From: an uncultured Clostridia bacterium
Lineage (GTDB): Bacteria; Bacillota; Clostridia; Christensenellales; UBA1242
Reading direction: 5' to 3'
NCBI GenBank assembly: GCA_947624415.1
Contig: CANQKH010000009.1
Location: 1 to 54,945, forward strand
Length of the DNA: 54,945 bases
Under the pieces are notes generated by a model, which was not told the DNA's origin, made no database searches, and saw only the letters and a list, made by a program, of their open reading frames with translations. Shown here piece by piece: positions 22,812-46,848 of the stretch; positions within the stretch are counted from its first letter, which is position 1; every line of letters starts with the position of its first letter. The position numbers were made by a program, and so were the translations under genes.

Positions 22812-22840
22812 TTTACAAAAGTTTTCTGTTGTTCTATAAT
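22812..22840 (+). promoter_or_regulatory. sigma-A promoter giving a leaderless DUF1858 mRNA
   Basis: TTTACA (22812-22817), a 17-base spacer and a perfect TATAAT (22835-22840). The ATG at 22847 sits six bases after the -10 box, where transcription should begin. Confidence 0.85.
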
Positions 22841-22846
22841 ACTTGC

Positions 22847-23077
22847 ATGAGAAAGAAAAAGAATGTTGAAATCAATAAGGATATGATTATAGATGAAGTG
22901 CTAGCCCTCGATGATAGCCTGGGAGATATTTTTTTAGGTTTTGGAATGCATTGTATATTTTGTCATTTAGGAATGGAGGAAACTATTGAAGAAGCGGCAC
23001 TAGTTCATCAGGTCGATGTGGATTTCCTAGTTCAAAAACTTAATGAGGCATATAAAGAAAAGAATAGCAAAAAATAA
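22847..23077 (+). CDS. DUF1858 small redox-type protein
   Basis: 76 residues, similar to the small DUF1858 proteins annotated as hybrid-cluster-associated redox disulfide proteins and to the N-terminus of ScdA-like proteins. The signature is INKDMIIDEVL, then FGMHCIFCHLG with a CxxC pair, then ETIEEAALVHQVDVD. It probably binds a metal or cycles a disulfide in the cytoplasm (family inference). A TTG at 22829 is in frame, but it lies upstream of and through the -10 box, so the ATG at 22847 is the real start. That start has no ribosome site. The gene is convergent with hflX, and the two share a terminator. Confidence 0.85.
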   Translation: MRKKKNVEINKDMIIDEVLALDDSLGDIFLGFGMHCIFCHLGMEETIEEAALVHQVDVDFLVQKLNEAYKEKNSKK

Positions 23078-23113
23078 GGGATTGATTGTAAATAATCACA
23101 TTTATCCCTTATT
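23073..23113. terminator. bidirectional terminator between DUF1858 gene and hflX
   Basis: AATAAGGGAT (23073-23082) pairs perfectly with ATCCCTTATT (23104-23113), and an inner TGATT/AATCA pair extends the fold. A/T runs on both sides let it serve both convergent genes. Confidence 0.85.
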
Positions 23114-23117
23114 TTTA

Positions 23118-24215
23118 TTATAAACTTAATTTCTTTTTTATTAAATCAATCAGTCTATCTATTCCTTTAACCTGTTTTACAGATATTAAAACTTCATTTT
23201 CTTCAATCAAAATAGGATTTTGAAGTAAATCACACTTATTGAGAACAACTATTCTGTTTTTAGTTGCCCCTAAATCATCAAGCAAATCATTAGTAACTTT
23301 CATGTTGATTTTATATTCTTTTTCGCCATTTACCATTTTATCTTGCGACACATCTACAACGTGTAAAAGCAAGTCGGCATCTTTTGCTTCTTCAAGCGTT
23401 GAAGAAAATGCATCAACCAATTGATGTGGTAAATCAGATATAAAACCGACAGTGTCAGTTATGATTGCATAACTATTATCTCCTAAAAACAATTTTCGTG
23501 ATGTCGTGTCCAAAGTGGCAAAAAATTTGTCATCGGCATAGATATTCTCTCTCACGAGATGGTTTAATAGAGATGACTTCCCTGAATTAGTATATCCAAC
23601 TAAGGCAATCTTTGGCATAGGTGATTCCAATCTTTCTTTTCGCGTTGATTGTCTTTGCTGTTTAATTCTTTCTATTTGGCCTTTAAGATTATCAATTTCA
23701 CTCTCTAGTTTTCTTCTGTTAAGTTCCAATTTGGTTTCGCCAGGACCTCGCATACCAACCCCACCACTACCAAATCTACCACTTGTTCCTTGCATTTGCG
23801 AAAGCCTTGGCAAAATATATTTATCTTGTGCAAGTTTTACTTGTAGACGTGCTTCACGCGATTTTGCACCTTTTGCAAAGATATCAATTATTAATCCTAC
23901 TCTATCCAAAACCTTAGTTTTAAATGCATCAGCAAGATTTTTCATTTGAGAACCCGATAATTGATAATCAACAATTACAACATCAATAACTTCCTCGCAT
24001 TCGTTAATGTAATTTTTGATTTCTTCAACCTTTCCGCTCCCTATCACCGTTCTCCTGTTAAATTCTTTTACGTTTTGATAAAAGTCTTTGACAACATTAA
24101 GTCCAGCGGAATAACAGAGGCGTTCTATTTCCCCTGTTTTTCTTTCAATATTATCTTCCTTCTTGTCGCATACGATTATGATAACCGCATTTTCCCTTTC
24201 AATTTTATTTTCCAT
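23118..24215 (-). CDS. hflX: GTPase HflX
   Basis: Ribosome-associated GTPase that splits stalled or stressed 70S ribosomes. It has 365 residues, slightly short for the family. The N-terminal HflX domain includes VIVDYQLSGSQMKNL and the SGRFGSGGVGMRGPGETKLE segment. Next comes a coiled coil and the G domain: G1 GYTNSGKSS at about 207-215, G3 DTVGF and G4 NKCD. The start is the ATG at 24215. It has no ribosome site but lies six bases after a perfect TATAAT, so the mRNA is predicted to be leaderless. The gene stands alone and shares its terminator with the DUF1858 gene. Confidence 0.97.
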   Translation of the reverse strand: MENKIERENAVIIIVCDKKEDNIERKTGEIERLCYSAGLNVVKDFYQNVKEFNRRTVIGSGKVEEIKNYINECEEVIDVVIVDYQLSGSQMKNLADAFKTKVLDRVGLIIDIFAKGAKSREARLQVKLAQDKYILPRLSQMQGTSGRFGSGGVGMRGPGETKLELNRRKLESEIDNLKGQIERIKQQRQSTRKERLESPMPKIALVGYTNSGKSSLLNHLVRENIYADDKFFATLDTTSRKLFLGDNSYAIITDTVGFISDLPHQLVDAFSSTLEEAKDADLLLHVVDVSQDKMVNGEKEYKINMKVTNDLLDDLGATKNRIVVLNKCDLLQNPILIEENEVLISVKQVKGIDRLIDLIKKKLSL

Positions 24216-24221
24216 GTGGTT

Positions 24222-24250
24222 ATTATAGCATAAAATCTTAAGCCTGTCAA
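24222..24250 (-). promoter_or_regulatory. perfect sigma-A promoter giving a leaderless hflX mRNA
   Basis: On the minus strand TTGACA (24245-24250), a 17-base spacer and TATAAT (24222-24227), all consensus. The -10 box is followed by six bases and then the hflX ATG, so the transcript should start at or within a base or two of the start codon. Confidence 0.92.
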
Positions 24251-24262
24251 AATTTTACAAAT

Positions 24263-24284
24263 AAAAAAGAAAGATTAATCTTTC
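24263..24284 (-). terminator. terminator of the small lipoprotein gene
   Basis: GAAAGA, loop TTAA, TCTTTC, then six T residues on the minus strand, just after the stop codon at 24287. It lies upstream of the hflX promoter. Confidence 0.65.
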
Positions 24285-24286
24285 CT

Positions 24287-24925
24287 TTAAAATCTATCAT
24301 TTTCATCCATAACGTTTACAATAAGGTTGTATTCATTTCCATCAACATCAACAATAGTAAACAGCCAATAAAGTTTCTCTTCTTCATCTCTTGTCATAAC
24401 TTTTAAATAGCATTCTCCATTGAATGAATTTTTACTTATTAAATTTGAAATAGTCTTTTCAAAGTGTTTTTGTCCAATTTGTATTGCCTTTTCACTATCA
24501 ATGACAAATTCTTTGCTAATATTTTCAAATTCGAACTTAAAATCTTTATAAATTATTGATATTTCATCCTCTGCATTTAAAGAATAACCCAAATCTGCCA
24601 TATAAGTGGAATTTAAAGGATTTAGTTCTAAAATAATATTGTTTGATTTCTCATTTATATTTATCTCCACCTCAATTTCTCTTTCAAAAACATTATTAAA
24701 TTTGAGTATAATTAAAGAAAAATCAACATTTTTTTCGTGAATTCCATTAATTATATAAGGCTGTTCTCTTTTTCCAATACTTATACTCCCCTTTTCCGCT
24801 CCACATCGGGCAAAAAAATATATTTCTGTTTTTTCACTTATATTATTTTTAACTGTATTTTTTTGACATCCTGTTATTGTAATTAATCCCAAAATAAATA
24901 TTAAGCATAACAAATATTTTTTCAT
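24287..24925 (-). CDS. small lipoprotein of unknown function
   Basis: 212 residues. The N-terminal signal (MKKYLLCLIFILGLITITGC) ends in the lipobox ITGC, so it should be lipidated and sit outside the membrane. The rest is a mix of beta-type sequence with no domain I recognise. The final part, TRDEEEKLYWLFTIVDVDGNEYNLIV, looks like a PepSY-type fold but is too weak to assign. The ribosome site AGAGGTGA precedes the ATG. It is divergent from the aldolase gene and ends at its own hairpin, so it is monocistronic. Confidence 0.75.
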   Translation of the reverse strand: MKKYLLCLIFILGLITITGCQKNTVKNNISEKTEIYFFARCGAEKGSISIGKREQPYIINGIHEKNVDFSLIILKFNNVFEREIEVEININEKSNNIILELNPLNSTYMADLGYSLNAEDEISIIYKDFKFEFENISKEFVIDSEKAIQIGQKHFEKTISNLISKNSFNGECYLKVMTRDEEEKLYWLFTIVDVDGNEYNLIVNVMDENDRF

Positions 24926-24950
24926 TTATCACCTCTTTTTAAATATATGT

Positions 24951-24981
24951 TTGAAAAAAAGTAAAAATGTGTTATTATAAT
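24951..24981 (+). promoter_or_regulatory. probable promoter of the aldolase gene
   Basis: TTGAAA (24951-24956) and TATAAT (24976-24981) are 19 bases apart, slightly long. An AAAGGAA ribosome site follows before the ATG at 24997. Confidence 0.5.
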
Positions 24982-24996
24982 TAAAAGGAAATAAAA

Positions 24997-25911
24997 ATGA
25001 AAGATTTAAAATATTTTTTAGATAAAGCACTCAAAAATCATTTTGCCTTAGGTGCTTTTAACTTTTCAGGGTTAGAAACTTTGCAAGGAATTACTCTTGC
25101 CTGCAGGGAAATGAACTCGCCTGCAATCATTGCCGTAAGTGAAAGTGCCTTGAATTATATGAATGATTATGTAATCGCCCTAGCAAACACTGCCAAAAAA
25201 CAATTTAATGGTCTTTATCTTCATCTTGACCACGGCAAATCATTTGAAATTTGTAAAAAGGCTGTCGATTTAGGATTTGATAGTGTTATGATTGATGGAA
25301 GTGCATTAAAGATTGAAGACAATATAAAACTAACAAAATCTGTCTGCAACTATGCCCATAAAAAAGGCGTGCTTGTCGAAGGAGAACTTGGACAAATAAA
25401 AGGCATAGAAGAAGATATATCAAGGCAAAAAGACATTTATACTGACCCACATCGAGCCTTTCAATTTGTAGATGAAACTTCTCTCGACCTTCTCGCAATC
25501 TCAATTGGAACAAGCCACGGAGCATATAAATATAACGGAGAGCAAACTTTGAGATTTGATATCTTAAAAGAAATAGAAAAATCTCTTAAAAATTTCCCCC
25601 TTGTGCTTCATGGTGCTTCGACAATTAATGAAAATTTGATAAATATTATTAATGATAACGGAGGCGATATTCAAAATGCTAATGGCATACCTGAGAATTT
25701 ATTGAAAATGGCAGTGAAAGATCATAACATTGTCAAAATAAATACAGACTCAGATTTGCGACTAGCCATGACCTCTGCGACACGACAATGTCTCAACAAT
25801 AACAAAAGCATAATTGACCCAAGGGAATATTTAGGAAAGGGACGCGATAAAGTAAAAGAAATTGTCGAATATAAAATCAAAAATATTCTTTTGTCGCAAA
25901 ATCAATTTTGA
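24997..25911 (+). CDS. fba: class II fructose-bisphosphate aldolase family protein
   Basis: Zinc-dependent aldolase of 304 residues. Probable ligands and catalytic residues are visible: Asp78-His79 in HLDHGK, Glu130 in VEGELGQI, His174 in IGTSHG and His205 in LVLHGAST. The substrate is most likely fructose-1,6-bisphosphate (glycolysis). The GatY/KbaY tagatose-bisphosphate aldolases share these motifs, so specificity is not certain from sequence. No sugar PTS or tagatose genes lie nearby, which favours the glycolytic role. It is a single gene with its own promoter and terminator. Confidence 0.9.
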   Translation: MKDLKYFLDKALKNHFALGAFNFSGLETLQGITLACREMNSPAIIAVSESALNYMNDYVIALANTAKKQFNGLYLHLDHGKSFEICKKAVDLGFDSVMIDGSALKIEDNIKLTKSVCNYAHKKGVLVEGELGQIKGIEEDISRQKDIYTDPHRAFQFVDETSLDLLAISIGTSHGAYKYNGEQTLRFDILKEIEKSLKNFPLVLHGASTINENLINIINDNGGDIQNANGIPENLLKMAVKDHNIVKINTDSDLRLAMTSATRQCLNNNKSIIDPREYLGKGRDKVKEIVEYKIKNILLSQNQF

Positions 25912-25930
25912 ATTTGAAATTTTATAGAAT

Positions 25931-25968
25931 AAAACACCTAACACGATACGTTTTGAAAGGTGTTTTTT
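25931..25968. terminator. bidirectional terminator between fba and spoIIID
   Basis: AAAACACCT (25931-25939) pairs with AGGTGTTTT (25958-25966), followed on the plus strand by further T residues. The opposite direction also gives a T-rich tail, so it can end spoIIID too. Confidence 0.85.
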
Positions 25969-26007
25969 CAAATATAAACATAAGCAAGTTCATAAAGGTT
26001 TTATTAT

Positions 26008-26262
26008 TTAATTATCTTTTTTCTCATATTTCTTTCGAGTGGCTTCACCGCCTCGAATATGCTTTTCTGCAAAATTTGCATCCAATATTGTTTTTACTTT
26101 TAAATATAAAGCATAATCTATATTTTTTAATTTTAAAGAAACATCATTATGAATTGTGCTTTTACTAAAACCAAATTTCTCTGCAGTTTTTCTTATTGTA
26201 TCATGGGTATTTAAAATATGTTCCGCTACTGCGACTATTCTTAAAGTTATTGCATCCTTCAT
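26008..26262 (-). CDS. spoIIID: sporulation transcription factor SpoIIID
   Basis: DNA-binding regulator of the sigma-E mother-cell programme. 84 residues, the family's usual length. It has the helix-turn-helix TAEKFGFSKSTIHNDV (about 26-41) and the hallmark basic C-terminal stretch RGGEATRKKYEKK. The start is the ATG at 26262 behind GGAGGGG; the GTG upstream at 26274 overlaps that ribosome site. In many Clostridia spoIIQ and spoIIID are neighbours; here only acpP separates them. A sigma-E-like promoter precedes it, as expected for this gene. It is direct evidence that the organism sporulates. Confidence 0.96.
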   Translation of the reverse strand: MKDAITLRIVAVAEHILNTHDTIRKTAEKFGFSKSTIHNDVSLKLKNIDYALYLKVKTILDANFAEKHIRGGEATRKKYEKKDN

Positions 26263-26280
26263 TATCCCCTCCACTCTTTA

Positions 26281-26307
26281 AATTTATGAAGAAGAAAGTT
26301 GAATTAT
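26281..26307 (-). promoter_or_regulatory. sigma-E-like promoter of spoIIID
   Basis: On the minus strand an ATA -35 core (26305-26307), a 16-base gap and CATAAATT (26281-26288) resemble the Bacillus sigma-E consensus (ATA, then CATAyAnT). spoIIID is sigma-E-dependent in known sporeformers. The match is short. Confidence 0.45.
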
Positions 26308-26340
26308 GTCATATTTTGTAGAACCATGAAAAATATTATA

Positions 26341-26368
26341 AAAAAAATGAGCTCGGCAAAACCGAACC
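26341..26368 (-). terminator. terminator of acpP
   Basis: On the minus strand GGTTCGG pairs with CCGAGCT (with wobbles) around TTTTG, followed closely by seven T residues at 26347-26341. Confidence 0.75.
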
Positions 26369-26387
26369 CAAAATTCCTAATTATAAA

Positions 26388-26621
26388 CTACTTTTTATTT
26401 TCATCAATTGCTGTAACGATTTGTTTAATGGTCTTCAACTCTTCCAACTTTTCATCAGGAATAGAAACATTAAATTCATCTTCAAAACTCATTAGTAATT
26501 CTACAACGTCCAAAGAATCTGCACCTAAGTCTTCAATAATATTTGAATCTTCCTTTATATCCTCTGCCGAGATGCATAATTGTTCAGCAACTAATTGTTT
26601 TACTTTTTCTAATGTGTTCAT
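26388..26621 (-). CDS. acpP: acyl carrier protein
   Basis: Carrier of growing acyl chains in fatty-acid synthesis. 77 residues, strongly acidic. The phosphopantetheine attachment site is Ser36 in GADSLDVVELL. The start is the ATG at 26621: GGAGGTTGAA lies just ahead of it, and an earlier in-frame ATG at 26633 overlaps the ribosome site itself. It has its own promoter and terminator. No other fatty-acid genes lie nearby; it sits between two sporulation genes, which is unusual. Confidence 0.96.
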   Translation of the reverse strand: MNTLEKVKQLVAEQLCISAEDIKEDSNIIEDLGADSLDVVELLMSFEDEFNVSIPDEKLEELKTIKQIVTAIDENKK

Positions 26622-26640
26622 TTCAACCTCCATGTTTATA

Positions 26641-26669
26641 ATTATAGCATATATAAAAAAATATGTAAA
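26641..26669 (-). promoter_or_regulatory. sigma-A promoter of acpP
   Basis: On the minus strand TTTACA (26664-26669), a 17-base spacer and TATAAT (26641-26646), with an upstream TGC giving an extended -10. Transcription should start near 26634, leaving room for the ribosome site. Confidence 0.8.
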
Positions 26670-26670
26670 T

Positions 26671-26701
26671 AAAAAACACGAAAATTTTTCACGTGTTTTT
26701 T
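26671..26701 (-). terminator. terminator of the spoIIQ-type gene
   Basis: AAAAAACACG pairs perfectly with CGTGTTTTTT around an 11-nt loop, nine bases after the stop codon at 26710. The symmetric A/T flanks permit either direction. Confidence 0.8.
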
Positions 26702-26709
26702 ATCAATAA

Positions 26710-27273
26710 TCACTTAACCTGTAAATCTAAATAATCGTTAGGATCGACAAAACTATTGTTAAGTTTTAATGCAAAGTGCAAATGTGCCCCCATTGAAAGT
26801 TCTCCTGCCGCAGAATTGTCAATTTCAGCAATTTTCTGCCCTGCTGAAACAACATCTCCTTCCTTAACCAAAACATTTTCGCTTAATGAAGAATACACTG
26901 AGACAAAGCCATTTGCGTGTTGAATTGTAACTGTTGTGCCTTCTAAATAAGGTTGGTCGATTTTTAGAACTGTGCCATCTAAAATAGAATTAACACTCGC
27001 ATCGTCTGAAACAAAATCAACATAAAGGTGTGCTTCCCATTGATTTAACGTTTCATTTTTTTGAAGTTCCTTATTTGAAAAATCCTTAATGATTGTGGCA
27101 TTGTTCATAGGCGATCTGAAATCTAATCTTGTTGTTCCTGTTGGAACTGCCTTATGTAAGGCCGCAATCAAGGTAAACGTTAAAGCAACTGCAAAAATTA
27201 TAATTCCAACAATAACAAAAATGCCATACTTTTTTACAAATTCAACAAATCTGTTTTTCTCCTCGACTTCCAT
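26710..27273 (-). CDS. spoIIQ: SpoIIQ-type LytM (M23) peptidase, membrane anchored
   Basis: 187 residues: a short cytoplasmic tail, one membrane helix (about 17-40), then an M23/LytM domain in the intermembrane space. The zinc site looks complete: His82 and Asp86 (HLYVD), His164 and His166 (HLHF), plus His119 in IQHANG. Bacillus SpoIIQ lacks one ligand, whereas some clostridial SpoIIQ proteins keep the full site. SpoIIQ sits in the forespore membrane and pairs with SpoIIIAH during engulfment. Assignment rests on the architecture and on the nearness of spoIIID; a vegetative M23 peptidase is the alternative. The ribosome site AGGAGGTAA is strong. Confidence 0.78.
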   Translation of the reverse strand: MEVEEKNRFVEFVKKYGIFVIVGIIIFAVALTFTLIAALHKAVPTGTTRLDFRSPMNNATIIKDFSNKELQKNETLNQWEAHLYVDFVSDDASVNSILDGTVLKIDQPYLEGTTVTIQHANGFVSVYSSLSENVLVKEGDVVSAGQKIAEIDNSAAGELSMGAHLHFALKLNNSFVDPNDYLDLQVK

Positions 27274-27324
27274 TTTTACCTCCTAGAAGTTTATTGACAG
27301 ATTTATTTTTTTTATACATTTATT

Positions 27325-27783
27325 TTAAAATCCCGTTATAATTAATGGATAACCCACAATCCACTCATTCTCTGTTTTGACAAGTTGAACATTAACTCTC
27401 TTGTTTTCTATAATTCTATAATCACAATAATTTTTATCGTAACCATAATATACTTGCCTATCTTCTATGCTTTTTCCACCAAAAAGTGTATAATTAAATC
27501 GTTTGTTAAAATAATTAAGATTTACGTTTTTGTTAAAGTATAAGACAACTCCTTTGACATAAGAGAAGTCTAAATTGTCAATTTTTTCCTTTTCTTCCTT
27601 TTCCACTATAAAATAAACATCATCACTATTAAAAATCTTTTGACAATCTTCTAACAGATTTTCATTATTTGAGACAATTACCATTTTTTCGCAATTACAA
27701 TCAAAAATTTCATTGTTGTCTTTAATAATTAATAGCATAAATGAAAATAAAATTATAAAAATAAAAGCAATCAATCTTTTCAT
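27325..27783 (-). CDS. membrane-anchored hypothetical protein upstream of the spoIIQ-type gene
   Basis: 152 residues: a lysine start, one hydrophobic helix (about 4-20), then a soluble extracytoplasmic part with several Cys (CNCEK, YCDYR). I do not recognise the family. Its place directly upstream of the spoIIQ-type gene, 51 bases apart with no hairpin between, suggests cotranscription and a possible sporulation role. There is no ribosome site before the ATG. A seven-codon reading frame (27800 to 27780) ends in an ATGA overlap with this start, so translation may be coupled. Confidence 0.65.
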   Translation of the reverse strand: MKRLIAFIFIILFSFMLLIIKDNNEIFDCNCEKMVIVSNNENLLEDCQKIFNSDDVYFIVEKEEKEKIDNLDFSYVKGVVLYFNKNVNLNYFNKRFNYTLFGGKSIEDRQVYYGYDKNYCDYRIIENKRVNVQLVKTENEWIVGYPLIITGF

Positions 27784-27843
27784 AATAAATTGATTGCCAT
27801 AAATATTACATTATATATTAAGAAATTTGTCGAAAATAGGCAT

Positions 27844-28074
27844 TTAAAGTATAATCATAGTTATTATTAATGCTATACCACCCAACAAACAAAAGCCTCC
27901 CAAAAGTCCATACAAAATACCTTTTGACTGATCATTAAGCGGTTCTCTCGCTTTCTTTTGCTTTACCTTCCCTTCTTTAACTTTTTCTTCGTCAGCTTGC
28001 TGTGGCGTTTGTATTATGGGTCTTTGATTTGGAGGCGCAATAGGCCTTTGTGGAATATTTTCTTTGTCTGGCAT
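27844..28074 (-). CDS. small proline-rich tail-anchored membrane protein
   Basis: 76 residues from the ATG at 28074 behind GGAG; an upstream in-frame GTG overlaps that site. The first half is rich in Pro, Gln and Lys (IPQRPIAPPNQRP). One hydrophobic helix occupies the last 25 residues (GLLGGFCLLGGIALIITMIIL), so the protein should be anchored by its C-terminus with the charged part in the cytoplasm. No family recognised. It follows the TasA-like gene by about 40 bases and is probably part of the same operon. Confidence 0.65.
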   Translation of the reverse strand: MPDKENIPQRPIAPPNQRPIIQTPQQADEEKVKEGKVKQKKAREPLNDQSKGILYGLLGGFCLLGGIALIITMIIL

Positions 28075-28116
28075 ACTCACTCCTTTATTTTATTGTAATA
28101 TTTTAAAATTTATTTG

Positions 28117-28674
28117 TCAATCAATTTTTATACTATTTAATGGCCATATTTCTTTAATATTCACACTTTCGTCCAAAGCCTCAACAACAATTGTGGCAAT
28201 ATATTTTACATTTGATTTCAAAGATGTTTCCTCATCAATATAAATATGAGAACATAATGAGGCTTTATCTTTTTTTGATAGAACATCATTAAAATAATAA
28301 TATCCATCTTCTTGACTAAATGTCCAATTTACTGTTTCAACCAGTCCCATGTCAAGCGTTTTATTTTCACTTGTATAAATATAAATTTTTGCTCTTAAAT
28401 ATAATCCATCCTCTTCTTCATTGTTTTTTATAGAAATTATTTGCGGAAGTCTGTCTCCAGCCAAATAAGAACCATCAATATTAAAAGATATAGCATTTGA
28501 CATATTTTTTGACACATCAATTTGTATATTTTTCCCCAGAACTAGGTCTGTTGTATATGAGGACTGAGTTTTAAAATAAAAACCGGATATTCCTAGGTAA
28601 ATAGATATTGCCAGCAAAATTGCAAGCAATATCGATGTAAATATCCATCCAAAATTATCTTTATTTATTTTCAT
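28117..28674 (-). CDS. membrane-anchored TasA/CalY-like protein
   Basis: 185 residues with one N-terminal membrane helix (about 11-33) and a beta-rich ectodomain. The segment NWTFSQEDGYYYFNDVLSKK resembles the 'W...dGYYYY..vL' motif of TasA/CalY-type and SipW-dependent secreted proteins. No SipW signal peptidase gene is in the window. Its ATG overlaps the stop of the upstream UPF0104-type gene (ATGA), there is no separate ribosome site, and translation is presumably coupled. A fibre-forming role is inference only. Confidence 0.6.
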   Translation of the reverse strand: MKINKDNFGWIFTSILLAILLAISIYLGISGFYFKTQSSYTTDLVLGKNIQIDVSKNMSNAISFNIDGSYLAGDRLPQIISIKNNEEEDGLYLRAKIYIYTSENKTLDMGLVETVNWTFSQEDGYYYFNDVLSKKDKASLCSHIYIDEETSLKSNVKYIATIVVEALDESVNIKEIWPLNSIKID

Positions 28675-30068
28675 AAGTTTATTTTGTTATAATCTTCTAT
28701 TTTTATTCTTTCTTTGTTCTGTTTTTTTCGTTTTGCACGCTCTACCCTAAATTTATTAATTTGTTCTTGCTTAAACACTTCACTTTCTTGAACCAAATTC
28801 TCTCTTTTAACCTGCCACTTGTATTTTTTATTTCCATAGGCAATGTCATAAGACAATATTGAAACTCCTTGCAAAAGATAAATATAATATGAACAAAATC
28901 TCCAAACTATCAAAACCCACACAAGTAGTGCCGATTGATTTGCAAGCACACTACCAAAAGATGCTGTAAACGAAATTTCATTCATTCCCGTTCCACCTGG
29001 CAATGGGAAAAATGAAGAACTCAAATCAACAAGACAAGTCATAACAAATAACTTTATATACATCGCCCCGTCAATAGATGGTGAAAAAAACCTAACTATA
29101 AAAAATGGTAATGAGTAATTTACAATTATTTTTGCAAGACTCAAAAAAGTCATTACAATAAAATCCTTGGGCGAGCGAGCATATTGTTTCATAATATCTT
29201 GAAAATCGCTAATATATTTAATAATCCTCTCATATTGCTTGTCGTAATTTTTGATAATTTTCATTTTGTAGAGCATTTTTAAAATTTTTACAACTAGTTT
29301 TTTCCCTATTGTTTTGCAAACCGACAAAAATACCGTTGCTACCAAAATTAGAGACGCAAAAATAAAGCCCAGCAAACTCGTTACAGAAACCAAAGTTCCA
29401 TAACTTGAATCTGTCCAAGAAATAATAAGGCTTATAAAACTTACAAGCACCCAAGAAATTTGTCCAAAAACATATTTTGCAAGTGGTATTGATAATGATG
29501 TATGAATAGGCATTCCATGTGTTTTTAAATAATTAATTTGAAATGGTTGTCCACCCGTTGCCATTGGAGTAACACTATCATAATACCTTCCTAGTTCGGC
29601 GACTTTATATGCAATTCCCCATCGACATTTCCCTGTCGATTGCTTTAAAAGATAAGCGACTATCAACGTATCAAAACTTATAACAAGTGCTAGTAATAAA
29701 ATTATTACAAAAAATGAGCCTAATCCTAATTTAGGACTTCGTAAAGAGACCCAATCCTCTTTTAATATTTGATAAATCAAAATTCCAACAACAACACAAA
29801 TATTAACAATAAACAAGACGATGCTTATAATTTTGCTTTTCTTACTGTTTCGTTTAGAAACAGATTGCTCAACTTCGTCAAGTTTCTTTTTTTGCAGGTT
29901 AATGGTCTCTTCCTGCAATTCTTTCAACTCTTCTTTATGAGCATCATCAAAATTATTTGCATCGTCTTCTTCAACAGAAATATTTTCCACATTTTCAAGT
30001 GGAACCAAATCATCTATATTTGATTGAACTACAACTTCTTTTTTTGATTTGTCTGTTGATTTTGTCAT
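28671..30068 (-). CDS. UPF0104 / lysylphosphatidylglycerol-synthase-TM family membrane protein
   Basis: 465 residues with a long charged N-terminal tail (about 80 residues, partly coiled coil), then some eight membrane helices. GKCRWGIAYKVAELGRYYDSVTPMATGGQP and FFPLPGGTGMNEI are hallmarks of the YbhN/AglD/MprF flippase-like family. These proteins handle lipids or polyprenyl-linked sugars; the substrate cannot be told here, and no MprF synthase domain is attached. The ATG at 30068 has no ribosome site and lies six to eight bases after the -10 box, so the mRNA appears leaderless. It heads an apparent operon with the TasA-like gene. Confidence 0.85.
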   Translation of the reverse strand: MTKSTDKSKKEVVVQSNIDDLVPLENVENISVEEDDANNFDDAHKEELKELQEETINLQKKKLDEVEQSVSKRNSKKSKIISIVLFIVNICVVVGILIYQILKEDWVSLRSPKLGLGSFFVIILLLALVISFDTLIVAYLLKQSTGKCRWGIAYKVAELGRYYDSVTPMATGGQPFQINYLKTHGMPIHTSLSIPLAKYVFGQISWVLVSFISLIISWTDSSYGTLVSVTSLLGFIFASLILVATVFLSVCKTIGKKLVVKILKMLYKMKIIKNYDKQYERIIKYISDFQDIMKQYARSPKDFIVMTFLSLAKIIVNYSLPFFIVRFFSPSIDGAMYIKLFVMTCLVDLSSSFFPLPGGTGMNEISFTASFGSVLANQSALLVWVLIVWRFCSYYIYLLQGVSILSYDIAYGNKKYKWQVKRENLVQESEVFKQEQINKFRVERAKRKKQNKERIKIEDYNKINL

Positions 30069-30074
30069 GGTTAA

Positions 30075-30104
30075 ATATTATCAAAGATAGATGACTTTTG
30101 TCAA
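30075..30104 (-). promoter_or_regulatory. sigma-A promoter giving a leaderless UPF0104-gene mRNA
   Basis: On the minus strand TTGACA (30099-30104) is followed after 16 bases by GATAAT or after 18 by TAATAT; either -10 box ends only eight or six bases before the ATG at 30068. No Shine-Dalgarno sequence is present. Confidence 0.8.
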
Positions 30105-30108
30105 GTTT

Positions 30109-35566: not shown

Positions 35567-36409
35567 CTACCTAACTTCTTTTATAACTCTATTCCCATAT
35601 TCAAGATTTACATTATCCAAAATCTTACTATCTTCGACATAGCACCCGCATAAATGACAGTTATTCGAGATTATACTATTTTTAATTATATTTCCACTTT
35701 CAAGAGTTGTGCCAGATGAAATTATACTTTCTCCTTGAATAATATTGTTTGGATAAATAACAACACCTGCATCTATTTCAACATCTGCATCGATAAAAAC
35801 AGTATTTTTTCCATAAATTACAACGCCATTTTTAATATGATAATCTTTAATTCTGTTATATAACTGCTCGCTTGCAAACGAAATATTTTGAGAATTGTCG
35901 CAAACTAAAAGATTTGTTTTTTCATCTCCAGACATTGTGCTTTGTGCTATGTTAGGATTATACTTTAAAAAATCGTTTTTGACTATAAATCCTCTATTTA
36001 AAAATAAAAAATTTATACTTTTTGCCGCAAAATACTCTACAATTCTTACAAATTGACTTTTGTCTAACAATGGTGTATCGCTATAAAAAACAGCAATTAT
36101 CTTTTTGTCGGTGTTGATGCTTCGAACTCGCTCGATTATATCATTACAATCATCTAATATCATCTGCTCGCAATTGCTTCCTGCTAATTTTACCCATTCA
36201 AGCATCATTTTACCACACAAATTCATGTTGTATTTTTCTGCTTTTACAACAACAAAAAGAACCTCATCTTTTATCCATTCGTGATTTTGTGGCTTTATCA
36301 ATGTTTCTGTTATTGATATGCTTTCCTCTTTTTCGCCAAGGTCTAAACTATCAAAATCAAATGAAATTTGGTTTTCTAAAACTTCTATATCTAAATCTTT
36401 ATTATCCAT
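35567..36409 (-). CDS. degenerate GlmU-like protein (NTase remnant plus left-handed beta-helix)
   Basis: 280 residues from the ATG at 36409. GlmU normally has about 450 residues and makes UDP-GlcNAc. Residues 50-120 align by eye with its nucleotidyltransferase core (NLCGKMMLEWV for 'vcGkpMl.hv', SDTPLLDKSQF for 'GDtPLl'). The nucleotide loop 'AAGKGTRM' is replaced by VKAEKYNM, and the sugar-binding half is mostly missing. Residues 195-275 are hexapeptide repeats. It is probably inactive as a uridyltransferase. Position next to pth-mfd supports descent from glmU. The mRNA is predicted to be leaderless. A TTG farther upstream is actually the -35 box and is not a start. Confidence 0.72.
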   Translation of the reverse strand: MDNKDLDIEVLENQISFDFDSLDLGEKEESISITETLIKPQNHEWIKDEVLFVVVKAEKYNMNLCGKMMLEWVKLAGSNCEQMILDDCNDIIERVRSINTDKKIIAVFYSDTPLLDKSQFVRIVEYFAAKSINFLFLNRGFIVKNDFLKYNPNIAQSTMSGDEKTNLLVCDNSQNISFASEQLYNRIKDYHIKNGVVIYGKNTVFIDADVEIDAGVVIYPNNIIQGESIISSGTTLESGNIIKNSIISNNCHLCGCYVEDSKILDNVNLEYGNRVIKEVR

Positions 36410-36416: not shown

Positions 36417-36445
36417 ATTATATAACTCCTTTTATTTTTTGTCAA
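36417..36445 (-). promoter_or_regulatory. perfect sigma-A promoter of the glmU-like-pth-mfd operon
   Basis: On the minus strand TTGACA (36440-36445), a 17-base spacer and TATAAT (36417-36422), all consensus. The ATG follows seven bases later with no ribosome site, predicting a leaderless mRNA. An AAGGAG inside the spacer would not be transcribed. Confidence 0.92.
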
Positions 36446-40440: not shown

Positions 40441-40596
40441 ATGAAAAAAGAATTAAATTATATTTATATTGTTCAAGAAGGAGATAATATTGAGAGTATT
40501 GCAAAAAAATATGGAGTTAGTGCAATGAGAATTTTAATTAAAAATTCAATATCCCCATCTATGGTAAAAAAAGGAAAAGTATTAATTATTTGCTAA
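40441..40596 (+). CDS. LysM mini-protein
   Basis: 51 residues that are almost nothing but one LysM domain: YIYIVQEGDNIESIAKKYGVS, then N and GKVLII, ending at Cys. LysM binds peptidoglycan or chitin-like glycans. There is no signal peptide, so it may work in the cytoplasm or mother cell, as LysM proteins of spore coats do (inference). A good AAAGGAGTT site is eight bases upstream. The gene is divergent from the SpoVB-like gene and its last 11 bases overlap the end of the convergent TVP38 gene. Confidence 0.75.
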   Translation: MKKELNYIYIVQEGDNIESIAKKYGVSAMRILIKNSISPSMVKKGKVLIIC

Positions 40597-41299
40597 ATCT
40601 TTTGGTTACCTTCTTTACAAAAGCCTCTATTTTTTCGTTATATTTGCTTGAAAGATATAGCGCAAATAAAGATATGATGATTATTATTCCCCACACAACA
40701 AGTCCCCAGTCGTGATATGGAATTACCTTTCCGCTTGAAAGATAACTGACTAGAAAAATTGATATTGGTCTTGTTATAAGTTGAGTCAAAATAAAAAACG
40801 CCCAACTCATATCTGTAACTCCCGCCACTAAGCACAAAACATCATCAGGGAAAAATGGCAAAATCATCATTAATACAAATGTATATTTGCAATTTGACAA
40901 AAAACCTATCCATTTTTTTTGTGCTTGCTCACCCACCATAAACTTAACCAATTTTTTACCAAAAACACGCCCCAAGAAAAATGCTAATGCACTACCAAGT
41001 AATATGCCAGAAAGTGAAAGCAAACCACCCTCAAATGGTCCATAAATTAAACTACCTGCAATTATCAAAATTGGAGAAGGTATTGGAATAAATGTTACTT
41101 GCAAAAATTGGAGAAATACAAAGGCAAACCTTCCCCAAAAACCCAATTCTAGTATTATTGCCTGTAATTTTTCAACTGAATTAAACTTATCCCAAAGCCC
41201 CGTTTTGTATAAAATTAAATAAGTAATGCCAAAAATTAATGCCAGCAAAACTAATACAAATATTATTCTTAATATTTTTTTTGTAAGAGACATTTCCAT
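40586..41299 (-). CDS. TVP38/TMEM64 family membrane protein
   Basis: 237 residues with five or six membrane helices. The signature region FLQVTFIPIPSPILIIAGSLIYGPFEGGLLSLSGILLGSALAFFLGRVFGKK is the SNARE-associated/VTT (DedA-like) domain. These proteins are thought to act on membrane lipids. The start may be the ATG at 41299, five bases after TATAAT (leaderless-like), or the ATG at 41293 using AAGG. The 3' end overlaps the LysM gene. Confidence 0.88.
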   Translation of the reverse strand: MEMSLTKKILRIIFVLVLLALIFGITYLILYKTGLWDKFNSVEKLQAIILELGFWGRFAFVFLQFLQVTFIPIPSPILIIAGSLIYGPFEGGLLSLSGILLGSALAFFLGRVFGKKLVKFMVGEQAQKKWIGFLSNCKYTFVLMMILPFFPDDVLCLVAGVTDMSWAFFILTQLITRPISIFLVSYLSSGKVIPYHDWGLVVWGIIIIISLFALYLSSKYNEKIEAFVKKVTKRFSK

Positions 41300-41394
41300 A
41301 CCTTATTATAAAGAAAAAATTTGATAATTATTCTTATTACCGAAAGTATATTTTTTATTCAAAAACAAACAATATCTATATTAAAGGAGAAATT

Positions 41395-42906
41395 GTGAAA
41401 AGTTCGGTAAAAGTAAATAAATCAAATAAAAAACTTTCTATTTTGTGGCTTATAATTGTCGCTTTTATTGCTGTAAGTCTTTTACTATTTTGTCAATTTT
41501 ATTTTGGTGATTCTATTAATTCCAAATCTACATTCTATCCAAACACGTTTATAAATGGCGTCGATGTTTCTGGTTTGACAAAGGCAGAAGCAAGCAATGT
41601 AATTCAAGAAAATTTTATTTCCAACAAGGATAATATCAATATTACTTTAAAATCCAAGGATAAAACATGGAACATAACTGGTGAGGATTTGAGCTATATT
41701 GGCAATTTTAATCCTACCCTTGATGAAGTTATGCAATATGGACATGAAGGTAATATTTTTGAAAAGAAAAAATTATCAAATAAAATCAAAAAAGAAGGTT
41801 TAAATGTTAACATTCCAATAGAAGATGTTTATGGCGGATTTAACGATAAAATCGAAACAATCATAGGCGAGTTAGAAACTGCACCAAAACCTAGCAAAAT
41901 AGAATTTAATCCAAATAGCGAAAATATGTTTAATATATTACCCCCTCAAAATGGTCTGATAGTAAACAAAGATGAATTAAAAAAAATGCTGAGTTCTGCA
42001 CTTAATGAAAAAAATTTTGACATTGAAATCCCTATCGTTGAAGTATTGCCACAAGAAGACCTTCAATCCCTGCAAAATAAGATTGCCATTCGCTCATCTT
42101 TTTCAACAGATTACTCAAAGTCAACAAGTGATAGAAAATATAATATAAAAATGGCTTTGTCTAAATTTAATGGTATGATTATTGAACCCGGCCAAGAAGT
42201 GTCATTCAATAGCATTACTGGAGCAAGAACAAAAGATAATGGCTATAAAACAGCAAAAATAATAATTGGGGGCAAATATGTAGATGGAGTAGGCGGAGGT
42301 GTCTGCCAAGCATCTACTACACTTTATAATGCCTTAATTTTGGCAGATGTCGACATTTTACAAGTCAATCATCATACTCTACCAGCATCTTACGTCCCTC
42401 TTTCCTTTGACGCAATGGTGAGCGAGGGTTATGCCGACCTTGTTTTTAAAAATACATTAGAGACACCTATTTTTATCAAAACAATTTGCGATGATAAAAC
42501 AGCAACTGTTCAAATTTATGGTCAACCACTTGAAGAAGGAGTTACACTAAAAGCCCGTGCTGAACTTGTTAAAATCATTCCTCATGGCGGAGATGACATT
42601 ATAAAAGATGTTAAAAATGAATACGGCGACAAGGTTTTATATAAGGGCGAATACTATAGATTAAAATTCCCGCAAGAGGGCTACGAATCAAAAGGCTATA
42701 TTCAAAAAATAAAAAATGGAGAAATTATTGAAGAAAAAGAAATAAGGCACGACAAATATCTTCCTCAAAATGGCATTATTGTAGAGGGAAATTATACGCT
42801 TGAAGAGGGAATGACTCTTCCTGCAAATAATGTAAAATATATTCCACCCCAAAAAGTAACTGAAGAAAATGAAAAGAATGCTAAAATGAGATGGAATATG
42901 AATTAA
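41395..42906 (+). CDS. VanW family protein with YoaR-type domain
   Basis: 503 residues: one N-terminal membrane helix (about 16-37), then the extracellular part. PNTFINGVDVSGLTKAEASNVI marks a YoaR/peptidoglycan-binding-4 type domain, and a VanW domain runs from about 230 to 385 with VGGGVCQASTTLYNALILADVDI and ADLVFKNTLETPIFIKT. The last part resembles a G5-like tail. VanW proteins are found with cell-wall genes; their biochemical role is not settled. It begins with GTG behind AAAGGAG. Its stop codon abuts the stop of the convergent cca gene. Confidence 0.92.
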   Translation: MKSSVKVNKSNKKLSILWLIIVAFIAVSLLLFCQFYFGDSINSKSTFYPNTFINGVDVSGLTKAEASNVIQENFISNKDNINITLKSKDKTWNITGEDLSYIGNFNPTLDEVMQYGHEGNIFEKKKLSNKIKKEGLNVNIPIEDVYGGFNDKIETIIGELETAPKPSKIEFNPNSENMFNILPPQNGLIVNKDELKKMLSSALNEKNFDIEIPIVEVLPQEDLQSLQNKIAIRSSFSTDYSKSTSDRKYNIKMALSKFNGMIIEPGQEVSFNSITGARTKDNGYKTAKIIIGGKYVDGVGGGVCQASTTLYNALILADVDILQVNHHTLPASYVPLSFDAMVSEGYADLVFKNTLETPIFIKTICDDKTATVQIYGQPLEEGVTLKARAELVKIIPHGGDDIIKDVKNEYGDKVLYKGEYYRLKFPQEGYESKGYIQKIKNGEIIEEKEIRHDKYLPQNGIIVEGNYTLEEGMTLPANNVKYIPPQKVTEENEKNAKMRWNMN

Positions 42907-44142
42907 TTATAAAAATTTAAGTTTATCGCCCACTGCAAGCAAAAGGTCTGCTCTTTCATTATTGACCTTACCATCAAAAACATCGCTAAGCAAACTTTCC
43001 AATATAGGCTTATATCTATTTGCTTGAACTGTTGGAAAATTTATTTTCAAATCATCACCATTTATCTTTAAATCTTTAACCGACACAATGAGTTTATGGG
43101 ATATAATATATTTATAAAAGAAATAATATTTGTTTGCTAAAGATTTTGATTTGTGAATCAAAAGCAAATAAATTTGTTGGAAATTATTAAAATACTTAAA
43201 GAAATATGGCTTGTTTTGAACTTTATTTAAAGCTGCATAATAGCCTGAAAGAATATTTATATAACTCTCCGCCATTTTCTTGTTTAGGCCAAAAGAATTT
43301 AATAAAATTAAGTTTAAATAATATGAAACTGAAGTTGGATTTACGTTGTCAATAACATCTATCAAAAAGCCCTGAGATTTATGTTGAACTTTTTTTACCA
43401 TATTAAATTTTAACTTAGGACAATCTATACCAAAAATTGTCCACAAACCACCTTTATTAAAATTTTTAAGTGCCTGCATATATGCATTGGATTTTGAAAC
43501 GCCTTTATATTTACTACCACTATGAAGTATCCTAGTTATTTCATATACAACACGTTCTCCTGACACATCTTTTAAATTTTCCTTATATTTAAAAGCCCCT
43601 TCAAGCGTTGATTTATCAATTTTAAAATTTAATTCACATTGGAAACGAAAAAGTCGTAAAACCCTTACACCATCATGACAGAATACATCATCTGGCGTCT
43701 CTATAGTTTTTAAAATTCGCTTTTTAATATCTTCAATTCCGCCATAAAAATCATAAATTTTATCATTTTTTATGTCGTAATAAATAGAATTGCAAGAAAA
43801 ATCTCTTCTTTTGGCATCCTCTCGCACACTTGTTATAAACTCCACCCTTTCTGGCAAATGTGCACCACCTTCTGGATAATAATCTTTTCTAAAAGTCGTA
43901 TATTCATATTTTTCATCATCACATAAAATAAGAGCAGAGCCCAACACTTTGCTTTTTACCTTTAATGTGAAATTGCTGTCTTTTAATAATTTCTCGACTT
44001 CATCAAGTGTTAATGGAGAAACAATATCTATGTCGTCATTTTTTATCCCCATTATTTGATTTCTTATATATCCACCAACTATGTAAAGTTCTGGAAAGCT
44101 TTTTGCCAATTCCTCCAGATTCTTTGAAATTTTGATTTGCAT
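42907..44142 (-). CDS. cca: CCA tRNA nucleotidyltransferase / poly(A) polymerase family
   Basis: Adds or repairs the CCA end of tRNA. 411 residues, class II nucleotidyltransferase. Motifs: YIVGGYIRNQIMG, NDDIDIVSP (the catalytic DxD is ND-DID), RRDFSCNSIYYDI and RVLRLFRFQCELNF. The C-terminal region lacks an HD domain. A poly(A) polymerase (pcnB) is the alternative, as the two are hard to tell apart, but one such gene is expected to be cca in Firmicutes. GAGGTAAA is the ribosome site. Confidence 0.88.
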   Translation of the reverse strand: MQIKISKNLEELAKSFPELYIVGGYIRNQIMGIKNDDIDIVSPLTLDEVEKLLKDSNFTLKVKSKVLGSALILCDDEKYEYTTFRKDYYPEGGAHLPERVEFITSVREDAKRRDFSCNSIYYDIKNDKIYDFYGGIEDIKKRILKTIETPDDVFCHDGVRVLRLFRFQCELNFKIDKSTLEGAFKYKENLKDVSGERVVYEITRILHSGSKYKGVSKSNAYMQALKNFNKGGLWTIFGIDCPKLKFNMVKKVQHKSQGFLIDVIDNVNPTSVSYYLNLILLNSFGLNKKMAESYINILSGYYAALNKVQNKPYFFKYFNNFQQIYLLLIHKSKSLANKYYFFYKYIISHKLIVSVKDLKINGDDLKINFPTVQANRYKPILESLLSDVFDGKVNNERADLLLAVGDKLKFL

Positions 44143-44172
44143 TAGTTTACCTCAAATACTTTTTACATTAAT

Positions 44173-44201
44173 ATAATAAAATATTTGCTAAATATTGTCA
44201 A
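44173..44201 (-). promoter_or_regulatory. sigma-A promoter of cca
   Basis: On the minus strand TTGACA (44196-44201), a 17-base spacer and TATTAT (44173-44178). A leader of about 20-25 nt with GAGGTAAA follows. It is back to back with the promoter of the P-type ATPase gene. Confidence 0.8.
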
Positions 44202-44218
44202 ATCTATTTATAATAAAG

Positions 44219-44248
44219 TTGACTTTTTGACAATAAATAATATATAAT
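44219..44248 (+). promoter_or_regulatory. sigma-A promoter giving a near-leaderless P-type ATPase mRNA
   Basis: TTGACT (44219-44224), an 18-base spacer and TATAAT (44243-44248). The ATG follows eight bases later (44257) and there is no ribosome site. A nearer TTGACA (44227-44232) is only 10 bases from the -10 box and is not usable with it. Confidence 0.75.
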
Positions 44249-44256
44249 ATTAAAAG

Positions 44257-46848
44257 ATGAGCAAGAAAAAAACAGAAAAAATTGTAGATTCAAGAGTTCA
44301 ATTGATTCTTAAAAATAAAAATCAATATAATCGAAAAATATCAAACGTATATAGTATTGATACTCTTTTTTATACTCAAGAAGGTTTGGAAAATAATAAA
44401 TCCTTTATTGAAAAATTGAAAGATAAAAGAAAAAGAAAATCCGTCATTGAAGAATACAAACCTTTTGTTGATGAATCAGTTGAAAGATTTAATGTGGACT
44501 TGAATACCGGTCTGAGCGAAGAGCAAGTAAAGGCAAGATTTGAGGCAAATCTTACAAATAAAACTAAGGTCGCATCCTCAAAATCGGTAACCTCAATCTT
44601 GGTAAAAAATATTTTCACCTTCTTTAATATGTTATGGCTAATAATTGCAGTCGCCTTAATTTGGGTGGGTTCATACAAGGATTTAATTTTTGTATTTGTT
44701 ATTGTTGCAAACACTGCCATTGCAATCATTCAAGAATTGCGTGCAAAATTTGCAGTAGAAAAACTTTCGCTTGTTACGTCGCCACTAGTAAAAACAATAC
44801 GTGATGGGAAAATTATTGAAATCCCCGCCGATCAACTTGTTCTTGACGATATTATATTACTCACTAGCGGAAATCAAATCCCCTCTGATAGCATAATATT
44901 AAATGGTAACGTCGAAGTCAATGAAAGCCTTTTAACAGGCGAATCAAATGCCATTGAAAAAGGTAAAAACGACAACCTGCTTTCAGGAAGTTTTATAGTA
45001 TCTGGCGAATGTTACGCAAAAGTGGATAAAATTGGAAGCGATAACTATATTTACCAAATGGCAAAAAAAGCAAAAGAATTTAAAACTCCACAATCAAGTC
45101 TTTTTAAAGACTTAAATAGACTTATAAAATACATCGGTATTGCCCTTGTCCCTATCGGTGTGTTGACATTTTTAAAGGAATACTCCATAGCAGGTTCTAC
45201 AATTCAAACACAAATTACTAAAACAAGCGGCGCTTTAACAAGCATGATTCCTGCAGGAATGTTCTTGCTTGTTACTATTAGTTTGGCTTTAGGCGTTGTC
45301 AAACTATCAAGGAAAAAAACTCTTGTGAGAGATTTGTATTCCATTGAAATGCTGGCAAGAACAAATGTTTTATGTCTTGACAAAACGGGAACTATAACAG
45401 ACGGAACAATGAGAGTCGTTGACTTTATGAGTTATACAAGAAAAAGAACAACAAGCATAAAAAAAATATTGTCGAATGTTTTAAATGTTCAAAAAACATC
45501 AAATGCGACCTCCACTGCAATGATTAAAGAATTTGGAAGAAGCCAAGATATGAATGCTATAAATATTGCCGAATTTTCTTCCGATAAAAAATATTCTATA
45601 ACACAATTTTCAAACAAAAAAATTTATTTCCTGGGGGCTATATCTAAAATAGGTTGCCAATTGACAGAAGAACAGGTTGACTTCATAAAACAACAACAGG
45701 CAAAAGGTTTGCGTGTCTTAGGCTTAAGTGAACTTGAAAATGCAGTTTTTGACAAGAAAATGAATGGGAAAAAATCAACACTTTTAGCAATAATAGTCCT
45801 TGAAGAGCATATTCGTGATGATGCTATTGAAACTATACAATGGTTTAAAGACAATGGTGTAGAGATAAAAATTATTTCAGGTGATGATCCAGCAACTGTT
45901 TCAAAAATTGCACAACGTGTAGGAGTAAAAAATAGTGATAAATATGTTTCACTAGAAAACGTCAGCATGAAAGAACTTGAAATTCTTGCGGACCAATTCA
46001 CTGTTTTTGGAAGAGTTACTCCCGAGCAAAAATATACAATAATTAAAGCACTTAAAAACAAAGGCAAAGTTGTTGCGATGACTGGCGATGGCGTCAACGA
46101 TACCCTTGCCCTTAAGGAGGCAGATTGCTCAATAGCAATGGCAGACGGCAGTGAGGTTGCAAGAAGTATTTCTAAAATTGTTCTATTAGAATCAAACTTC
46201 TCCTCTATTCCGGCCGTAGTAAAAGAAGGCAGACAAGTTGTAAATAATGTTCAAAATTCTTCTTCGCTATTCCTTATGAAAACATTTTTTGCAATATCAC
46301 TTACAATACTTACACTATTTTTACAATTAGAATATCCATTCCAGCCAAGTATGATGATGCTTCTAGAATGCTTTGTAATAGGACTTCCTTCATTCCTGCT
46401 TACTTTTGAACCAAACACAAAACCTATTAAAGGTAACTTTATTCCACAGGTTATGAAACGGTCTTTACCGAGAGCATTCCTTATGCTTTTAAATGTCATG
46501 ATTGTTATTGCACTTAACCAAAAATTAAGTTATATAAGTCAAACAGACTATATCACTTTAGCAATTCTTGTTATGACGTTTACAGGATACTTAAACCTTG
46601 CAACTCTTTGTATTCCGCCTTCCTTATTGAAAGGGTTCACTGCAATTTTTGCTTTAGTCGCAAATATTGTTGCAATTATTGCATTGCCTCAACTTTTCTA
46701 TATAAAAGTTGAAAATATGCTTTCAACACTTTTGACATTCTTTGCAATAATGTTAGCATCTATTATAATACTTGTAGCCATTAAATTGAATCAAAAACGA
46801 ATTGATAAACTGCGAGCAAAAGTTATTAGTTTGTTACAAAAGCAATAA
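44257..46848 (+). CDS. cation-transporting P-type ATPase (CtpE-like)
   Basis: 863 residues. Actuator motif TGES at 227-230, phosphorylation loop DKTGTITDG from Asp375, hinge TGDGVND at 609-615, about ten membrane helices. The fourth-helix region MIPAGMFLLVT is close to CtpE-type pumps, reported as Ca2+ transporters in mycobacteria, rather than to heavy-metal CPx pumps; no N-terminal metal-binding Cys motif is present. The ion is therefore uncertain (Ca2+ favoured by similarity). The first 80 residues form a charged cytoplasmic extension. Starts without a ribosome site. Confidence 0.93.
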   Translation: MSKKKTEKIVDSRVQLILKNKNQYNRKISNVYSIDTLFYTQEGLENNKSFIEKLKDKRKRKSVIEEYKPFVDESVERFNVDLNTGLSEEQVKARFEANLTNKTKVASSKSVTSILVKNIFTFFNMLWLIIAVALIWVGSYKDLIFVFVIVANTAIAIIQELRAKFAVEKLSLVTSPLVKTIRDGKIIEIPADQLVLDDIILLTSGNQIPSDSIILNGNVEVNESLLTGESNAIEKGKNDNLLSGSFIVSGECYAKVDKIGSDNYIYQMAKKAKEFKTPQSSLFKDLNRLIKYIGIALVPIGVLTFLKEYSIAGSTIQTQITKTSGALTSMIPAGMFLLVTISLALGVVKLSRKKTLVRDLYSIEMLARTNVLCLDKTGTITDGTMRVVDFMSYTRKRTTSIKKILSNVLNVQKTSNATSTAMIKEFGRSQDMNAINIAEFSSDKKYSITQFSNKKIYFLGAISKIGCQLTEEQVDFIKQQQAKGLRVLGLSELENAVFDKKMNGKKSTLLAIIVLEEHIRDDAIETIQWFKDNGVEIKIISGDDPATVSKIAQRVGVKNSDKYVSLENVSMKELEILADQFTVFGRVTPEQKYTIIKALKNKGKVVAMTGDGVNDTLALKEADCSIAMADGSEVARSISKIVLLESNFSSIPAVVKEGRQVVNNVQNSSSLFLMKTFFAISLTILTLFLQLEYPFQPSMMMLLECFVIGLPSFLLTFEPNTKPIKGNFIPQVMKRSLPRAFLMLLNVMIVIALNQKLSYISQTDYITLAILVMTFTGYLNLATLCIPPSLLKGFTAIFALVANIVAIIALPQLFYIKVENMLSTLLTFFAIMLASIIILVAIKLNQKRIDKLRAKVISLLQKQ

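Follow-up and report, generated by a model that had tools for sequence, protein, structure and literature searches.

Several genes in a 54,945-nt stretch of DNA from an uncultured gut Clostridia bacterium (contig CANQKH010000009.1; hereafter the window, part of a 1.45-Mb draft genome in 42 contigs) are preceded by sigma-A-type promoters lying so close to the start codon that transcription would begin at the A of the ATG, and we consider it very probable that these are leaderless genes. Three of them (a DUF1858 gene, hflX and a glmU-like gene) are best interpreted as being transcribed without a leader, because the spacing between promoter and start codon is conserved, the base at -1 is a pyrimidine and no Shine-Dalgarno (SD) sequence is present, and it is likely for a UPF0104-type gene. 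The initial annotation of the window had extended the reading to a P-type ATPase, a TVP38 and an Fn3-like gene, for which it was not supported. The signal is clear in the host's family, weaker in its order and near background in the class genomes sampled.

Promoters and start codons in the window

All five promoters described in the initial annotation, with -10 boxes ending 6–8 bases before an ATG, were found when the sequence was read directly (Table 1). Their -35 boxes are TTGACA in three cases, TTTACA and TTGACT in the others, as annotated, giving the arrangements TTTACA-N17-TATAAT-N6-ATG (DUF1858), TTGACA-N17-TATAAT-N6-ATG (hflX), TTGACA-N16-GATAAT-N8-ATG (UPF0104, with TAATAT-N6 as an alternative -10), TTGACA-N17-TATAAT-N7-ATG (glmU-like) and TTGACT-N18-TATAAT-N8-ATG (P-type ATPase). 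No SD motif was seen by eye at a working distance before any of the five ATGs; an AGGAG near the glmU-like gene sits within the spacer between the -35 and -10 boxes. Naive start calls at the TTG codons of 22829 and 36445 lie within promoters, as had been pointed out.

Table 1. Promoter elements and genes of the window, with one misleading start
Feature	Position	Strand	Remarks
-35 box TTTACA, DUF1858 gene	22812..22817	+	Read directly; 17 bases from -10
-10 box TATAAT, DUF1858 gene	22835..22840	+	6 bases before ATG
DUF1858 gene (hybrid-cluster-associated redox disulfide domain)	22847..23077	+	PF08984 E 1.5e-12; TIGR03980; predicted +1 = 22847 (A of ATG)
-35 box TTGACA, hflX	24245..24250	-	Read directly
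-10 box TATAAT, hflX	24222..24227	-	6 bases before ATG
hflX gene (ribosome-associated GTPase)	23118..24215	-	Pfam GTP-bdg_N, GTP-bdg_M, MMR_HSR1; predicted +1 = 24215
-35 box TTGACA, UPF0104-type gene	30099..30104	-	Read directly; also in L099, L103
-10 box GATAAT, UPF0104-type gene	30077..30082	-	8 bases before ATG; alternative TAATAT, 6 bases
UPF0104-type gene (LPG_synthase_TM)	28671..30068	-	PF03706
-35 box TTGACA, glmU-like gene	36440..36445	-	In most genus relatives (by eye)
-10 box TATAAT, glmU-like gene	36417..36422	-	7 bases before ATG
glmU-like gene (left-handed beta-helix)	35567..36409	-	Sub-threshold matches to PF25084 and GlmU models; predicted +1 = 36409 or 36410
-35 box TTGACT, P-type ATPase gene	44219..44224	+	Read directly
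-10 box TATAAT, P-type ATPase gene	44243..44248	+	8 bases before ATG
P-type ATPase gene	44257..46848	+	PF00122, PF00702
Acyl carrier protein open reading frame	26388..26633	-	PP-binding E 1.9e-17; naive ATG 26633 just behind -10 box

Start-proximal -10 boxes in the host genome and its relatives

Genes were called in a 455-kb sample of the host genome (400 kb plus the window) using a simple codon-usage caller, which takes as the start the 5'-most ATG fitting the coding potential and is blind to promoters and SD motifs. A -10 box had to be TATAAT-like with at most one mismatch and TANNNT kept, and its distance was measured to the called ATG. Genes with such a box 5–8 bases before the start were classed as leaderless-type, a spacing of 9–12 serving as the control among orthologues, and the 60 bases upstream of called genes were subjected to 200 dinucleotide shuffles.

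As a result, 32 of 294 called genes fell into the 5–8-base peak, compared with 14.0 ± 3.8 (maximum 25) in shuffled sequences; two other counts gave 31 of 293 and, with slightly different training, 32 of 296. Plotting the distances revealed two peaks: a sharp one at 5–8 bases, to which spacing 6 alone contributed 16 genes, and, beyond a trough at 9–11, a broad one spanning 15–30 bases. Distances to internal ATGs were distributed flatly. The excess amounted to ~ 18 genes (6%) after subtraction of the shuffles and ~ 24 genes (8%) after subtraction of the internal-ATG rate (0.66 per 100 per position). Among 30 genes without an ATG start, the gene set being otherwise anchored on ATG, one had a box at 6 bases. 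The excess of the motif that the initial annotation called for was found in the 455-kb sample and in the family.

An SD-like motif preceded none of the 32 peak genes versus 184 of the 262 others (Fisher 8e-16), and 78 of the latter showed neither signal. Peak genes tend to head transcription units: they made up 16 of 71 divergent genes and just one of 102 genes lying less than 40 bases behind a co-directional neighbour (Fisher 2.4e-6), with 6/47 at gaps of 40–99 bases, 7/69 at gaps of 100 bases or more and 2/5 at ends. The plain motif TATAATN{5,8}ATG occurred 21 times in the window (8.6 ± 2.9 in shuffles, maximum 16), a count that proves little by itself because 15 of the matches lie away from the gene starts discussed. 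The raw whole-genome count of 316, against 102 for the backward pattern, was set aside as it is not gene-anchored.

Three marks that had played no part in picking genes (the -1 base, the -35 box and the TG extension) were scored in eight family genomes. Transcription usually starts at an A preceded by a pyrimidine at -1. A pyrimidine occupied this position in 45 of 47 genes with a spacer of 6, in 10/10 at spacer 5, 11/12 at spacer 7 and 2/7 at spacer 8; the corresponding figures were 278/481 for SD genes, 134/217 for genes with neither signal, 40/86 for internal ATGs with a box at 5–8 bases, and 99/163 and 196/316 for spacers of 13–20 and 21–44. The low share at spacer 8 points to promoters of the P-type ATPase kind being different. 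TG-extended -10 boxes were more frequent at 5–8 bases (34/76) than at 0–4 and 9–14 (8/103) or at 15 and more (112/458), as were -35 boxes with up to two mismatches (45/76 versus 25/103 and 173/458). The TTGACA-like -35 box 16–18 bases from TATAAT that characterises sigma-A (sigma-70 group) promoters is present in this set. Promoter position, absence of an SD motif, conserved spacing in several genes, and the pyrimidine at -1 with A at +1 were all read from the sequence.

In seven family genomes, the peak held 44 of 478 genes; spacer 6 accounted for 31 of these, and three of the 44 had an SD-like motif. The proportion was 22/587 (13 at spacer 6) in 21 order-mates of other families, where the small number of genes per genome (10–73) makes family-by-family rates unreliable. 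In class genomes of other orders, it was 4/255 (two at spacer 6) in four genomes and 2/59 (one at spacer 6) in three more. The pattern TTGACA-N16-18-TATAAT-N5-8-ATG outnumbered its counterpart with N10-13 by 654 to 284 in 147 family genomes including the host (higher in 104, lower in 25, equal in 18), and by 645 to 585 across 112 genomes of the class that belong to other orders (higher in 52, lower in 38). A gene set drawn from hflX loci, with 55 of 257 genes in the peak, was excluded from all rates because hflX itself dominates it.

Records of the hflX relatives place 43 of 44 in Clostridia, Clostridiales, Firmicutes or Christensenella and one in Cloacimonadota, and the window contains GerA-type spore germination genes. 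A search of the assembly for 16S gave no match, and host matches to the S1 model TIGR00717 stayed below the cut-off (best 168 bits, from a 345-aa frame).

Conservation and switching among orthologues

Of the 45 hflX orthologue rows (genome G034 is present twice), 41 were leaderless-type, 38 of these at exactly 6 bases, while two were weak and two had neither signal; the control spacing occurred in 8/45. The leaderless-type rows had a pyrimidine at -1 in 39/41 and started with ATG (38) or GTG (3). For the glmU-like gene, 23 of the 24 genus relatives were leaderless-type (16 with a 6-base and 7 with a 7-base spacer), with a pyrimidine at -1 in 23/23, and not a single control spacing occurred. 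The UPF0104-type gene was found in 41/41 genus genomes; its two readable orthologues show TTGACA and TAAACT ending 6 (L103) or 8 bases (L099) before the ATG by eye.

DUF1858 orthologues fell into two modes. Among 41 rows, 16 were leaderless-type (spacing 6 in 11, 7 in 5), 21 SD-led, three neither and one without a start, the control spacing occurring in three. All 16 leaderless-type rows had a pyrimidine at -1, and many showed TTGAC or TTTACA as the -35 box by eye. In most SD-led orthologues the start codon lies only a few codons away from the leaderless one, and the mode changed at least three times over 37 labelled rows on the hflX protein tree (45 rows, quick method). A class II aldolase gene is SD-led in the window and most relatives and leaderless-type in two genomes of the same genus, G034 (L102) and G080 (L097); two further rows (L044, L048) were flagged only at shifted starts.

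Collectively, orthologues of the host's leaderless-type genes were themselves leaderless-type in 47 of 82 matches (8 of the 32 genes had orthologues in the DNA examined), in 14/42 without hflX and in 12/22 without both hflX and the miscalled acpP gene discussed below. The same spacing was seen in 3/123 orthologues of SD genes (control 6) and 2/17 orthologues of genes with neither signal.

The P-type ATPase was rejected as strictly leaderless, as its spacing is not kept among relatives (7, 8, 11 and about 15 bases by eye); for this reason it probably has a very short leader instead. Its 25 rows, including the host's, comprised six leaderless-type, two with both signals, two with SD and 15 with neither. 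Orthologues in the genus relatives G335, G349 and G351 align over nearly the full length with one TGA and four TAA codons inside, possibly through decay or recoding.

Pfam models, in some cases along with NCBIfam, were run on 20 leaderless-type genes outside the window, which include lepA, engB/ysxC, rsmD, uvrA, and genes for RNase HII, a YitT protein, a U32 peptidase and an MBL-fold hydrolase. The last (L087:860-1639, +) is leaderless-type here and in 9/15 orthologue matches. Together with hflX, the ribosome-linked genes lepA, engB/ysxC and rsmD may hint at a pattern, but lepA (G131) and engB (G125, G297) are not leaderless-type in those relatives. A deaminase-like gene (L089:14689-15141, -) and a CAAX protease-like gene (L089:15221-16183, +), both leaderless-type, diverge from 79 bases that hold both promoters.

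One peak gene, acpP, was a false positive: GGAGG precedes its next ATG at 26621, as in relatives, and 18 of 20 orthologue matches were SD-led with two leaderless-type. The true start is probably 26621, which would leave a leader of about 12 nt. Weaker promoters had also been proposed for three other genes. Read by eye, a TATAAT-N5 precedes the TVP38 gene without a clear -35 box, and the TATAAT of the Fn3-like gene lies only 2 bases before the ATG (TATTAT at N5), so neither proposal was supported. The PRC-barrel gene (22037-22750, -) does have the suggested weaker box (TACAAT-N6, by eye), but relatives keep a different one: in several near relatives a AATAANNTA-like box, not TATAAT, lies about 6 bases before the ATG, and far relatives mostly show an SD-like stretch (by eye). 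This box is possibly a sporulation-sigma promoter, also leaderless. Elsewhere in the window, a 3793-aa open reading frame (7763-19144, -) without any Pfam match adjoins a TraG/HerA-type ATPase gene (19176-21953).

Alternative readings, proposed mechanism and known systems

Several observations weigh against leaderless transcription. The gene caller and start rule are simple, and at least one of the 32 peak genes (acpP) is false; as much as half of the raw peak count is matched by shuffled sequences. With hflX set aside, orthologues of the host's leaderless-type genes had the control spacing in 9/42, versus 14 for the 5–8-base spacing, and an SD-like motif in 23/42 (at least 18 of them acpP). 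The lepA gene is leaderless-type in the host, yet AGGAG precedes a TTG start in G131, and uvrA has the leaderless arrangement in G080 but lacks it in G034 and G057. Upstream regions of hflX in the order's other families yielded 0/27 leaderless-type cases (19 neither, five SD-like, three without a start in reach), most starts there being unclear. Some other short spacers often have a pyrimidine at -1 too, namely 0–4 (44/50, partly the box's own T) and 11 (11/13), in contrast to spacer 8, and the purine preference at the +1 expected for leadered promoters is faint (A 46%, G 20%). An additional upstream promoter is possible.

An alternative is ultra-short leaders: transcription would begin a small number of bases before the ATG, or slightly within a gene that uses another start codon, and the -10 box would mark nothing beyond a compact promoter. 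The drifting P-type ATPase spacers, accompanied by an SD-like motif in only 4/25 rows, the GGAGG before the second acpP ATG and the MBL-fold hydrolase, whose box lies more than 8 bases away in some relatives, agree with such leaders. We think this alternative quite unlikely, given the sharp peak at 6 with its nearly invariant pyrimidine and the SD-led DUF1858 orthologues, most of which start so near the leaderless position. That the boxes are chance products of AT-rich, low-structure upstream DNA, with SD-less leaders transcribed from farther upstream, could draw on the AT content of 67%, the 14 of 294 genes expected from shuffles and the 78 of 262 genes with neither signal, but is very improbable and already hard to hold against the position-specific peak, the -35 and TG enrichment, the -1 pyrimidine, the conservation among orthologues, the bias towards operon-first genes and the absence of excess in the equally AT-rich class genomes G167 (1/62) and G249 (1/63).

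Under leaderless transcription, the 5' end of the RNA and the route taken by the ribosome are inferred. A sigma-A type promoter with a TTGAC or TTGCA -35 box and an often TG-extended TATAAT would direct RNA polymerase to begin with the first base of the start codon, yielding an mRNA that begins with AUG and has no SD, and translation would start straight from this terminal AUG. Initiation on leaderless mRNAs proceeds by a 70S or a 30S-IF2 route. In the 455-kb sample, about 6–8% of the called ATG genes, most of them without another gene close in front, would be expressed in this way beside ordinary SD-led genes, a habit common to the family and weaker in the order.

A much more doubtful extension is that leaderless initiation acts as a regulatory choice in this family, allowing intact 70S or SD-impaired ribosomes to translate hflX (and in this genome also lepA, engB/ysxC and rsmD). 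HflX splits stalled 70S ribosomes; if the idea were true, its synthesis would be favoured whenever unsplit or damaged ribosomes build up, forming a feedback loop, and the DUF1858 mode switches would be a natural experiment on that choice. More generally, the orthologue sets with two modes (DUF1858, class II aldolase, uvrA) allow the cost or gain of switching between leaderless and SD-led initiation to be asked about. In practical terms, gene callers expecting an SD may misplace starts in this gut lineage, at TTG codons inside promoters or at later ATGs, with consequences for N-termini, signal peptides and operon maps.

The remark in the initial annotation that leaderless mRNAs are not regarded as common in Firmicutes calls for qualification. 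The leaderless signal was defined by Zheng et al. 2011 and already predicted there in 56 of 209 Firmicutes genomes, covering 4.2% of genes (2.4–16.6) and mainly in Lactobacillales and Mycoplasma, compared with around 20% of genes in Actinobacteria and around 40% in Deinococcus-Thermus (PMC3160421), and leaderless transcription is predicted in 21.6% of bacterial species (cited in PMC9581028). Mapped Clostridia show just 2–4%: in C. phytofermentans 4% of intergenic sense transcription start sites are potentially leaderless, generally with another upstream start site and a ribosome binding site (PMC5171806), and in three solventogenic clostridia 2–3% of transcripts are leaderless (PMC9045289). 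A literature search, partly of titles and abstract openings, brought up no apparent work on leaderless mRNAs in uncultured Clostridia.

The genes described here resemble the TA-led genes of Lactobacillales and Mycoplasma in having a TATAAT-like box about 12 bases upstream of the start and no SD while SD-led genes coexist, and share the TG before the -10 box with some low-GC genomes of Zheng et al. 2011. They differ from the Firmicutes clades named in that study, to which the host does not belong, in coming from an uncultured gut Clostridia family with orthologues compared gene by gene. As in Actinobacteria and Deinococcus-Thermus, the Pribnow box would put +1 at the start codon, here in only about 6–8% of genes after background subtraction. 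As in the Clostridia with mapped start sites, leaderless transcripts would be few; unlike there, the genes lack an SD, and several of them retain their spacing from one species to another. Leaderless genes as such are thus a known kind, and what appears to be new, within the literature searched, is that a clade of Clostridia carries the signal clearly in its sequence, together with switching at the level of orthologues.

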